IMG/VR virus record: IMGVR_UViG_3300028925_001648 | Span: 1-28,916 of that record | Strand: one strand, 5' to 3' | Source of the DNA: a virus | Length of the DNA stretch: 28,916 nucleotides | In this document: positions 2,392-23,216 of the stretch, piece after piece | Numbering within the stretch: position 1 is the first letter of the stretch | How the letters are laid out: each line of letters starts with the position of its first letter | Notes under the pieces: generated by a model | What the model was told of the DNA's origin: nothing | Databases searched by the model: none | What the model saw: only the letters and a program-made list of their open reading frames with translations | Translations under genes and position numbers: made by a program

Positions 2392-3312
2392 TTATATCCA
2401 TTTTTTAAGTTCTTCAATATCTTCCTTTATGCTGTTTTCAAGAAAAAAATATGCCTTAACAAATTTTGCAAAGTCAGGTACATCATTTGGAGCAATACCT
2501 AATTCCTTTGCAGCACTTGATATTTGCTTGTCAGTATCTACATATATTTTAGTTATTTTTCCTAATACTGTATTTAAACTTTTAATTGAGTTTGCAGCTC
2601 TTTTTTTATTATTCTCAAATTCATCTACTAACTTATCTGCATTTGCTGAAATTTTTTCTGCAATTTTAAACATCTCTAATCTATTCTCAGTTGCTACATT
2701 AAACTCAACCTTCTGAACACTTAACAATTCTTTTAATGCAGTTCTTACTTCTTCTGTTGTAAAATCTTGCTTTTTCATTTTCTGTATTTTATCAATAAAG
2801 TACCCCTCAATACTAAGACCTTTCAATTCTCCTGATTTTATCTTACTCCAAAGTTCATCATTTTCAATTTTCATTGAAACCATCCAAGTTCCTTTTGGTA
2901 AAGAAAAACCATACAAAGCTGACTTATCCATTTTACTATCTTGAATTATCCAACTCTCAACTGTAAGGACACCTGCTACTCGTTCCTTATGCTCCTCAGT
3001 AGCTTTATGGTGGTTGTTATGCTTTAAGTATAATTCAGACGCTTGACGGACAGTTTTAGGACTAAAATAAACATAGTAGTCTTGGTCAGTATTAGGATCG
3101 TATCTAAATATTTGCTTGTTAGGTATTAGTGCAGGAGAGATTATCATTCTTTTCTCCTCATCTACTTTTGCAAAAGTTAAATTATTCTTTTCTTTTCCAA
3201 AAAAAACAAAGTCAGTTTCTATAGCAGGAGCATTTACTAAACTTATAGCGTCTATTGCTAACGCTTCGCTATCATCTTCTATTACTAATTCTACTATTTT
3301 GGTTTTTTTCAT
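2392..3312 (-). CDS. XkdF-type prohead protease with C-terminal KELG domain
   Basis: Residues 15-180 match the pattern of XkdF-like capsid proteases of Bacteroidota phages: 'AISLVNAPAIETDFVFF' near the N-terminus, 'ALIPNKQIFRYDP', 'VRQASELYLK', a histidine-rich stretch (HNNHHKATEEH, 98-108), 'LTVESWIIQDSKMDKSALYG' and 'SMKIENDELWSKIKSGELKGLSIEG'. A histidine around 101-108 and Ser120 in the ESW motif are candidate catalytic residues; I infer this by analogy. The protein should cleave scaffold and/or capsid during head maturation. From about residue 204 a helical domain is appended, with KELGI at 269-273 then NDVPDF. The two genes downstream encode the same kind of domain, which suggests fission or duplication from this tail. 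Confidence 0.8.
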   Translation of the reverse strand: MKKTKIVELVIEDDSEALAIDAISLVNAPAIETDFVFFGKEKNNLTFAKVDEEKRMIISPALIPNKQIFRYDPNTDQDYYVYFSPKTVRQASELYLKHNNHHKATEEHKERVAGVLTVESWIIQDSKMDKSALYGFSLPKGTWMVSMKIENDELWSKIKSGELKGLSIEGYFIDKIQKMKKQDFTTEEVRTALKELLSVQKVEFNVATENRLEMFKIAEKISANADKLVDEFENNKKRAANSIKSLNTVLGKITKIYVDTDKQISSAAKELGIAPNDVPDFAKFVKAYFFLENSIKEDIEELKKWI

Positions 3313-21299: not shown

Positions 21300-21530
21300 T
21301 TAATAGTTTAAGTGTAAGTGTAATAAAAAAGAAGATATAACTAAAGCGACAAGTCCTAAACAACATAAGACAAATTTTGCTTGACTTATTTCGTTAGTGC
21401 TATCATCAATAGAATAATCTTTTTCTAAGTTAATATATTCTCCTTTAGCATTTTTAGAGTAAAAGAAATCTGCTGCTCCTTTACCGCTTAGGTTAAAGCT
21501 ATGACCTGTTTTTTTGTTTGTAATTTTCAT
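21300..21530 (-). CDS. Small tail-anchored membrane protein
   Basis: This is a 76-residue protein. Residues 1-45 are polar (KKTGHSFNLSGKGAADFFYSKNAKGEYINLEKDYSIDD). Residues 52-72 (KFVLCCLGLVALVISSFLLHL) form one transmembrane helix at the C-terminus, so the protein is probably anchored with its N-terminus in the cytoplasm. There is no signal peptide. Phage proteins of this form may alter the host membrane or exclude superinfection, but nothing here proves it. It lies just downstream of a strongly self-complementary gap (21572-21658) and is separated by two bases from the next start. Confidence 0.6.
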   Translation of the reverse strand: MKITNKKTGHSFNLSGKGAADFFYSKNAKGEYINLEKDYSIDDSTNEISQAKFVLCCLGLVALVISSFLLHLHLNY

Positions 21531-21571: not shown

Positions 21572-21658
21572 AAATAGTAGCAACAGGAATTTATTTTATA
21601 ACCCTGATATCTTTGTAGATAAATTCGTACCCTGTGCTTCGTGCTTTTACTACTATTT
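21572..21658 (-). terminator. Nested inverted repeats ending in a T tract
   Basis: The gap after the 140-residue gene contains nested pairs: AAATAGTAG (21572-21580) with CTACTATTT (21650-21658), ACAGG (21583-21587) with CCTGT (21631-21635), and GAATTTAT (21587-21594) with ATAAATTC (21619-21626). On the minus strand the outer stem is followed by UUUUUAAU. This suits a large terminator or attenuator. The outer arm overlaps the stop codon of the upstream gene. Confidence 0.45.
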
Positions 21659-22075
21659 AGTTTTAGTGTTTAAGTTATCCAAAATTGATTTTCCATTTTC
21701 ATCCCCATTAATATCAAGACAAGCATCTTTTTGAGCATTAACCCAATCATCTGACTGATATTTAGCGTAATCATCTGTAATTGTTTTAATATCGCACAAT
21801 ATATCTAGTGCTTGTAGTGTGCCTTTAAATTGTGGCATTTCTCTAACCATTTTATTATCTACTAATGTAACGGATATTTCAATTTCTCTAGCTATCAAAT
21901 ATTTAGTATCACCCATAGCTGAATTTTTAAATTCAAGTATCATTTTGTTAGCATTTTCTAAATTGTTAAATCTACTAGCATCATCTAAATCTTTAGACCA
22001 AATTGTAACATCATTAGTTGATGTAGTTAAATAGTACTTGTTTCTGTTTTCGCAAAAAATTGTAAATAGTTTCAT
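21653..22075 (-). CDS. First early-operon protein, function unknown
   Basis: This 140-residue protein begins MKLFTIFCENRNKYYLTTST. The first half is beta-rich (SVTLVDNKMVREMPQ), with a helix 'NNLENANKMILEFKNSAMG' and a C-terminal helix 'YAKYQSDDWVNAQKDACLDINGDENG'. No domain is recognised. It is the first gene after the long non-coding leader and promoter candidate, so it would be among the earliest phage products; host-takeover or anti-defence functions are typical of this position but unproven here. The stop overlaps an inverted-repeat arm that may terminate transcription. Confidence 0.6.
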   Translation of the reverse strand: MKLFTIFCENRNKYYLTTSTNDVTIWSKDLDDASRFNNLENANKMILEFKNSAMGDTKYLIAREIEISVTLVDNKMVREMPQFKGTLQALDILCDIKTITDDYAKYQSDDWVNAQKDACLDINGDENGKSILDNLNTKTK

Positions 22076-22098
22076 AGTTATAAATTTAAGTTATTAAT

Positions 22099-22247
22099 TA
22101 TAAAGAAACGCTTTAAAATATTCTACTTTTGAGGGAATCTACACGTTAAATCTACTCCTTTTGTCTAGTTTCTGATGTATCTAGTTACTAAGTGATGAGT
22201 TTAACCGGCTGTCAATCTGTGGAACATTTCAAGGAGCGTTTCTTATA
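22099..22247 (-). ncRNA. Candidate structured 5' leader of early operon
   Basis: TATAAAGAAACGCT (22099-22112) and AGCGTTTCTTATA (22235-22247) are complementary over 13 pairs with one bulged base, enclosing 122 bases. In the minus-strand transcript the 5' arm starts about where the promoter candidate predicts the first base. Inside, GUUAAA (22205-22200) can pair with UUUAAC (22150-22145), and CUCCUU (22236-22231) with AAGGAG (22160-22155), an interleaved, pseudoknot-like order. The leader ends 24 bases before the first early ATG. A riboswitch-like or protein-binding element is inferred. Confidence 0.4.
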
Positions 22248-22416
22248 GTACAAAACTACACCTTTTAAGTTATTCACACAATTTCTCATAACTTTATCTG
22301 CAAAGTTATTAACAATTATAATGTTAATAGTGTTTTAACTAGATAAGCAACTTCAACTGCTGTCTAGTATATAAGTATTAAAAAAGTGTGAAAGTGCCTG
22401 AAAAGGCTAAAGGGTA
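22248..22416. other. Gene-free AT-rich region, possible origin
   Basis: With the leader, this makes up the 341-base gap without a gene (22076-22416). It holds the promoter candidate, the DnaA-box-like TTATTCACA (22270-22278), a perfect hairpin TATTAACA (22307-22314) / TGTTAATA (22322-22329) with a 7-base loop, and scattered TCTAGT/ACTAGA hexamers (also in the leader). An origin of replication or control region is plausible. Confidence 0.3.
22251..22281 (-). promoter_or_regulatory. Candidate early promoter with DnaA-box-like spacer
   Basis: On the minus strand TTG (22281-22279), 20 bases, then TAGTTTTG (22258-22251) fit the Bacteroidota TTG / TAnnTTTG promoter. The start is expected near 22246-22244, at the outer arm of the leader helix. 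The spacer carries TTATTCACA (22270-22278, plus strand), a match to the DnaA-box consensus TTWTNCACA. Confidence 0.4.
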
Positions 22417-22494
22417 CTATAAATTAAGCAATATAACAACTACTATAATAAGCAGATATATTCCAAAGACTTGCCATGTGATGTCTTTCTTCAT
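22417..22494 (-). CDS. 25-residue single-span membrane peptide
   Basis: ATG 22494 overlaps the TGA of the metallophosphatase (ATGA) and opens a 25-codon frame reading MKKDITWQVFGIYLLIIVVV then ILLNL, ending in TAG at 22417-22419. It has a short polar, lysine-bearing N-terminus and one hydrophobic helix from about residue 9 to the end. This is the form of a small membrane peptide such as a holin regulator or lysis accessory. The stop-start overlap and the clean hydrophobic pattern are the evidence. Confidence 0.6.
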   Translation of the reverse strand: MKKDITWQVFGIYLLIIVVVILLNL

Positions 22495-23216
22495 AATTCC
22501 ATTAAAAGATTAATAGGTAGTGTGCCATTATTTAAGACTACTGAGCAGCCTATGGCTTGGCGTTTAAAATTTTTAGCGTAATTTGCAGCATACGTGTCAG
22601 CATCTACACCACATCCAACCTGCATCCCAAAGACTTTAAAACGCTTTCCAACAAACCACTTACAATATGCCTCTGTATGAGTGTGTCCACAAACACTAGA
22701 CATTAGATTATTCTTTGCTTTGGCTTGTGCCTGACCACCTTCTCCATGTTCGTATAGCACATCATCATATACTACTGATTCTACCCAATTCCAAGCAGGA
22801 GTATTTAGGACTTCGTTATAAGACTTAATCCATTCTTTAGGTATTCCGCCTGAAAACGCCTTACGACTAGCCATCCTATCATGGTTTCCTATACATACAT
22901 CAGCAATAGGGAATGCTTTATACCAATCAGCTACTTTAATAATAGTCTTTTCAAGTTCTAGTCCCGCCGAATCCCCGTTCGGGTCTGGCTCATGAAAAGA
23001 ATACGCATGATTATCCAAAATATCCCCAATAAATATTACCTGATTACAGTTGTAAGTTTCATATTGCTCAATACAGAAATCTAAATATCCATCTAAACAA
23101 AATGGTTCATGAAGGTCGCCGATAACTAGGATATTCCTAGCTTCGGTTTCCCTCATTTTTTCTAGTGCCACAATCTCATGTGGCTTTAATCTAAATCTAT
23201 TATTTTGACTTTCCAA
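22491..23216 (-). CDS. Calcineurin-like metallophosphoesterase
   Basis: This 241-residue protein has all the motifs of the two-metal phosphoesterase family: GDLH at 33-36, GDILDNH at 64-70, GNHD at 110-113, an EHGE segment at 156-159, and GHTH at 177-180. The active site should hold two metal ions. The substrate is unknown; phage members may act on nucleotides, nucleic acid ends or proteins. The gene lies between a membrane protein (overlap 17 bases) and the 25-residue membrane peptide (ATGA), inside a lysis-type cluster rather than the replication block, which is unusual and could mean late expression. Confidence 0.85.
   Translation of the reverse strand: MESQNNRFRLKPHEIVALEKMRETEARNILVIGDLHEPFCLDGYLDFCIEQYETYNCNQVIFIGDILDNHAYSFHEPDPNGDSAGLELEKTIIKVADWYKAFPIADVCIGNHDRMASRKAFSGGIPKEWIKSYNEVLNTPAWNWVESVVYDDVLYEHGEGGQAQAKAKNNLMSSVCGHTHTEAYCKWFVGKRFKVFGMQVGCGVDADTYAANYAKNFKRQAIGCSVVLNNGTLPINLLMEL

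Follow-up and report, generated by a model that had tools for sequence, protein, structure and literature searches.

The locus described here raises the question of what separates the early promoter of a phage from the first gene of its early operon, and what that separating stretch might do in the early transcript. The window, that is, the whole stretch of DNA analysed, is a virus record of 28,916 bases. Its longer reading frames lie mostly on the minus strand, where the genes include those for terminase, portal, an Erf-like annealing protein, a DUF3127 single-strand binding protein, a replication initiator and NinG. The phage is a marine one. Because the nearest named relatives of its metallophosphoesterase are found in phages of Cellulophaga, Tenacibaculum, Nonlabens and Flavobacterium, the host, judging from this kinship, very probably belongs to the Flavobacteriia. 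To our knowledge, RNA regulation in marine Bacteroidota phages has been little explored. A preliminary description of the locus had placed a promoter and then a structured leader RNA before the early operon. We compared this arrangement with that of related phages, using four scans with the phosphoesterase that yielded 119 distinct downstream regions.

The early promoter

The features upstream of the predicted transcription start are as follows.

22491-23216: metallophosphoesterase gene, upstream of the leader interval
22268-22315, minus strand: degenerate 12-bp repeat array, TTGTTAATAACT / TTGCAGATAAAG / TTATGAGAAATTG / TGTGAATAACTT, overlapping the -33 region
22281-22279, minus strand: -33 element TTG, part of the early promoter candidate
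22258-22251, minus strand: -7 element TAGTTTTG, a Bacteroidota-type box; predicted +1 at A22246

The promoter proposed in the preliminary description, TTG and TAGTTTTG with a start near 22246, is well supported by comparative evidence: the place of the box is conserved, its geometry agrees with published promoters and the same box recurs in a relative. An exact TAnnTTTG stands at the homologous place in 90 of the 119 distinct related phage loci, downstream of repeats resembling TTGTTAATAAC, where the window has TAGTTTTG, and one locus (L249) has an identical TAGTTTTG box in nearly identical surroundings, before a short leader of the ordinary kind. In Flavobacterium johnsoniae (PMC6847099) and F. 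psychrophilum (PMC9723704) the box occupies -12 to -5, and its last G is at -5 in F. johnsoniae promoters (PMC6847099); the predicted +1 of the window is therefore A22246, and TAGTTTTG conforms to the Bacteroidota sigma-A pattern of TAnnTTTG at -12 to -5. The promoter of the window may nevertheless be weak, since its box has a G at -10, which is very rare among F. johnsoniae promoters (PMC6847099).

The 12-bp array that overlaps the -33 region has counterparts at the same place in relatives. In 71 distinct relatives the self-match at lag 12 is 0.61, compared with 0.25-0.44 at other lags; it is weaker in the window itself (0.47), and in L049 the array is a perfect 12-bp tandem repeat (AAAAACTTGGTG, 3.2 copies). 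Such an array is a probable operator, or set of iterons, for a phage regulator. Further upstream, after the phosphoesterase gene, a block at 22335-22420 (minus strand) is conserved in about 40 relatives (AGCCgTTTTAGGCACTTTC...CTTTTT...ACTAGACAGCACTTAAAGTYGCTTATCTAGT); it contains a terminator-like hairpin and an ACTAGA/TCTAGT dyad, and consistent covariation was not seen in it by eye. A conserved upstream hairpin at about 22365-22335 gave a first impression, by eye, of covariation, which mismatches in several relatives do not support.

An extra segment before the early operon

Downstream of the promoter, the following features can be distinguished.

22219-22247, minus strand: 5' arm of the terminal helix, which has some 26 pairs and is interrupted by a CC bulge
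22201-22227, minus strand: mini-ORF MFHRLTAG*, its start within the 5' arm and its 3' two thirds in the apical domain
22127-22218, minus strand: apical domain, about 92 nt, with weak alternative folds
22099-22126, minus strand: 3' arm of the terminal helix, from pair probabilities and duplex ranking
22076-22098, minus strand: A/U-rich translation-initiation stretch, largely unpaired, resembling the whole short leader of relatives
21653-22075, minus strand: first gene of the early operon, encoding an orphan protein of 140 aa

Between the predicted +1 and the first substantial reading frame there is a median of 23 nt in the relatives, compared with 171 nt in the window; the median 5' UTR of F. 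psychrophilum is 24 nt (PMC9723704). Most relatives have the promoter followed by a plain, A-rich leader of about 23 nt, without the structured segment of about 145 bases. Since the last 23 nt or so before the start codon of the window are similar to the entire leader of these relatives, the structured segment appears to separate +1 from an initiation region of the ordinary type, and its borders are features that the relatives keep, the promoter on one side and the A-rich leader on the other. The gene that follows is an orphan as well. No relatives of its protein were found in viral contigs, phages, Pfam or PHROGs, its predicted structure was uninformative (pLDDT 31), and the gene is missing from the fetched relatives; in the closest ones, g76 (21300-21530) directly follows the promoter. 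The long leader, the gene without kin and the position of g76 straight after the promoter in the closest relatives together give the structured segment and the orphan gene the appearance of an insertion peculiar to the window phage.

The terminal helix

The segment had been described as opening with one arm of a 13-pair inverted repeat, the other arm of which would lie about 24 bases before the first early start codon. Both arms, AAGAAACGCT (22244-22235) and AGCGTTTCTT (22112-22103), are indeed present on the minus strand, the helix begins at the predicted +1, and the distance from the 3' arm to the start codon is 23 nt. The pairing, however, is longer than proposed: the 13-pair repeat is the outer half of an imperfect helix of about 26 pairs, 22247-22219 with 22126-22099. 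Past a 2-nt CC bulge this helix goes on as UUGAAAUGUUC/GAAUAUUUUAA and two further pairs, the layout being UAUAAGAAACGCU-CC-UUGAAAUGUUC-C-AC with GU-A-GAAUAUUUUAA-AGCGUUUCUU-U-AUA. The inner helix has two substitutions, both of which read as G-U pairs in the transcript. Predicted pair probabilities are mostly 0.8-1.0, falling to 0.4-0.75 for the outermost A/U pairs.

With an energy of -23.9 kcal/mol, the duplex ranks 17th of 19,172 positions on both strands of the window, where it is the sixth distinct site and the most A+T-rich (lowest in G+C) of the top sites; exact 10-bp inverted repeats within 220 nt number nine in the window, AAGAAACGCT/AGCGTTTCTT among them. None of 5,000 mononucleotide shuffles matched its strength. 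No other of the 104 homologous promoters compared has so strong a 5'-proximal long-range helix (z of -4.8, with a median of +1.1); L294 and L004 come next. The total folding energy is modestly below that of shuffles (z of -2.0 to -2.8) and, after correction for G+C, ranks 271st among 5,754 windows of 150 nt, with 270 better. As the helix is extreme and the energy of the whole fold only modestly unusual, the signal is in the long helix, not in a compact fold.

Could the leader be no more than an AT-rich spacer between genes in which an inverted repeat arose by chance? The five other sites in the window with duplexes of equal or greater strength, and a global z of only about -2 to -2.8, are what speaks for chance. 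Such an origin is nonetheless highly improbable, given that not one of the shuffles equals the helix, that it begins at the predicted +1 and that it is the strongest of the 104 homologous sites.

Searches for homologues

Searches by blastn found no homologue of the leader in phage records, in all fetched loci or in 49 + 8 whole related records, and a covariance model of the single sequence found none over 85 sources and 48 related records; the leader is missing from every relative examined. In Rfam it had no covariance-model match at the gathering score and nothing relevant up to E = 10. The exact pattern AAGGAGTAGATTTAACG had one match, in unrelated sequence, which was put down to chance, as were the 20 matches of the pattern GACAGCCGGTTAAAC on inspection. 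The two P1 arms with a gap gave seven matches in unrelated, coding-looking sequence, and the 142-nt spacing in six of these is a coincidence. A tRNA or tmRNA identity of the leader was rejected. The structured leader is new to Rfam, and of a known general kind.

The main rival to a functional RNA is an insertion at the level of DNA, either a small, non-autonomous mobile element of MITE-like type or a recombination scar that brought in the orphan gene, in which case the inverted repeat would be a terminal repeat and the RNA fold functionless. The segment is private to the window phage and has terminal inverted repeats, as a MITE does (10 bp perfect, about 26 imperfect), with TAT on both sides (TACTAT/AAGAAACGCT...AGCGTTTCTT/TATAATTAA). 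L016 has an empty-like, uninterrupted TACTATAATTAA, against which the TAT flanks, of 3 bp in AT-rich DNA, might be a target-site duplication. Comparable long-range inverted repeats are also present in other parts of the window, where no RNA is known. Against this origin, the segment is single-copy in its own record and has no copy in the 49 + 8 related records searched by BLAST or the 48 searched with the covariance model, so that the multiple copies of a MITE were not found; nor was a transposase-associated end recognised. Moreover, the repeat begins at the predicted +1, and the two inner-helix substitutions preserve pairing on the transcript strand. We therefore consider a DNA-level origin without RNA function somewhat unlikely.

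Apical domain and initiation region

Within the leader, GUUAAA/UUUAAC and CUCCUU/AAGGAG had been proposed to interleave like a pseudoknot, and only the first of these helices held up. GUUAAA/UUUAAC (22205-22200/22150-22145) is compatible with the terminal stem, at a predicted probability of about 0.6, whereas CUCCUU (22236-22231) straddles the bulge of the long helix, and its proposed pairing competes with that helix; forcing CUCCUU/AAGGAG costs 13 kcal/mol (-17.6 compared with -30.7, nested energies only). The initiation stretch has predicted unpaired probabilities of mostly 0.5-1.0, and no terminator-like hairpin was found after the leader in the window. The apical domain also contains, at 22125-22185 (minus strand), five UAGA motifs with spacings of 16, 13, 13 and 16 nt, which could be repeated protein-binding sites, or chance.

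Aptamers usually have a terminal helix and a branched interior, and the preliminary description had compared the leader to the general form of riboswitches. A ligand- or protein-responsive cis-regulator (a riboswitch, an attenuator or a site for a phage or host protein) would use the apical domain as a sensor and control the early operon; F. psychrophilum has 64 listed structured 5' regions that are thought to be regulatory (PMC9723704). The comparison remains an analogy. The leader resembles riboswitches and the cis-regulatory RNAs of Rfam in its 5' position and terminal helix, but it has no match there even at E = 10, and no visible expression platform, with no terminator-like hairpin and a ribosome-binding stretch and start-codon region that are, in the predicted fold, mostly single-stranded already. 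Its apical fold is not stable, the pseudoknot is unfavoured, and it lacks homologues, though known riboswitch classes recur widely. A sensory role is thus quite unlikely.

Leaders of related phages

At least nine relatives deviate from the plain short leader between promoter and first gene. Short elements occupy this slot in L004, L066, L080, L277 and L294, and the remaining four are L028, L065, L250 and L071; 5'-proximal closing helices are found in the leaders of L294 and L004, and the helices of L294 and L066 end in U6, in the manner of a terminator. Together with the leaders of L028/L065 and L250, these elements are alike in the promoter and in the slot between +1 and the ribosome-binding stretch, and several have a closing helix near the 5' end, as in the window. 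They are mostly unrelated, and have no sequence similarity to the window leader; in the loci searched, none had an Rfam match at the gathering score. Because at least nine relatives have differing RNA-like leaders in the slot, the early 5' UTRs of this phage group seem, from their sequences, to be a place for exchangeable RNA elements, the window leader being one private example.

Some of these elements recur. L028 (2271-2364) and L065 (6031-6124) have a common 94-nt element with 96% identity and a closing helix, AAGATTGG/CCAATCTT, around which the 5' and other parts of the two leaders differ, as might be expected of a mosaic RNA module. In L250, an RNA-like stretch of about 400 nt (2848-3230) without a substantial reading frame directly follows the early promoter; it had no phage match, and Rfam up to E = 5 gave only weak, unrelated matches. 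It begins near GTTCATTGAAATAA, which is common to L028 and L065 and which we take to be reminiscent of the boxA antitermination signal. A conserved intergenic element of 43 nt, AAAGGCAGAAGCAACCACCTTACCAAACGGAGCAAAAGTTTAA, precedes early genes, either directly after the promoter or between genes, in L071 (3332-3376), L250 (3179-3224), L028 (2376-2422) and L150 (5196-5241). Finally, a 45-nt hairpin element, AAGAGGGGTG...CACCCCT(T/C)T, stands before different genes in L004 (5918-5962) and L149 (1271-1313), reappearing before the second gene of L149 with one change in the stem, from G-U to G-C.

Such variety might suggest that the first early transcript is a trans-acting small RNA or decoy. Its target might be a host regulator, a nuclease or a defence system, for instance, and the operon would be expressed by read-through or after processing. 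Between relatives, the first segment behind the early promoter is highly exchangeable, long non-coding RNAs are among its variants (about 400 nt in L250, and those sharing the 94-nt core in L028/L065), and the U6 ends of L294 and L066 are terminator-like. The window, on the other hand, has no terminator, and for its leader a trans-acting role is very unlikely. As a broader conjecture, the slot, which holds a 145-nt rod-closed RNA in the window and 40-nt hairpins, a shared 94-nt core or an RNA of about 400 nt in its siblings, might be reserved for structured non-coding RNA modules that are exchanged rapidly and that would act, through RNA, as early host take-over or anti-defence factors, not as ordinary leaders; we regard this as a long shot.

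Discussion

The order of promoter, structured leader and early operon outlined in the preliminary description is supported by the comparison with 119 related loci and by the statistics of the helix, and a transcribed structured leader probably exists. As for its role, the reading that we favour, tentatively and at rather less than even confidence, is that of an exchangeable, phage-specific 5'-UTR module that would act on the early transcript in cis, with 5' protection or RNase III-type processing as its likeliest means; either particular mechanism is held a little more tentatively still. The module would have been inserted between the conserved early promoter and an ordinary A/U-rich ribosome-binding leader of about 25 nt. 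Transcription would begin at about A22246, and the first 29 nt or so of the early mRNA would pair with 22126-22099, forming a rod of about 26 pairs that closes an apical domain of about 92 nt, while the start-codon region stays open. Such an arrangement, with the 5' end paired and the initiation region beyond it free, suggests that the early mRNA is protected or processed: the rod may cap the 5' end against 5'-dependent decay, or serve as an RNase III-type processing site at which the leader is trimmed, or both. Cleavage might also free the apical domain as a small RNA.

Protection and processing both have counterparts in known systems. The stem-loop of ompA is an example of a 5'-terminal structure that stabilises mRNA, and the window leader likewise has a paired 5' end followed by a single-stranded initiation region; its rod, however, is much longer, with an interior of about 92 nt in place of a short loop, and any stabilising effect is putative. 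RNase III needs a duplex of about two helical turns, for which about 26 pairs suffice, and the predicted terminal duplex (about 26 pairs, -23.9 kcal/mol) has this length. Long duplexes in the early phage leaders of lambda N, lambda cIII, T7 and T3 are RNase III targets (PMC5371410). As far as the account of Steege (1987) and of Dunn and Studier (1973) in PMC5371410 goes, the lambda N leader and the early T7 sites likewise have a long, imperfect, untranslated duplex before an early gene, whereas in the window the duplex joins the predicted 5' end to a segment about 120 nt away, the host phylum and the sequence are unrelated, and cleavage is putative. The structured 5' regions of F. psychrophilum share the promoter type, the structured 5' UTR and the bacterial phylum with the window leader; they belong to host genes and the window leader to a phage.

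If the favoured reading of a cis-acting module is right, one conserved promoter slot in a common group of phages of about 29 kb would carry a set of alternative structured leaders, and the relatives free of such a module would be natural controls for its effects on early expression, RNA processing and host defence.
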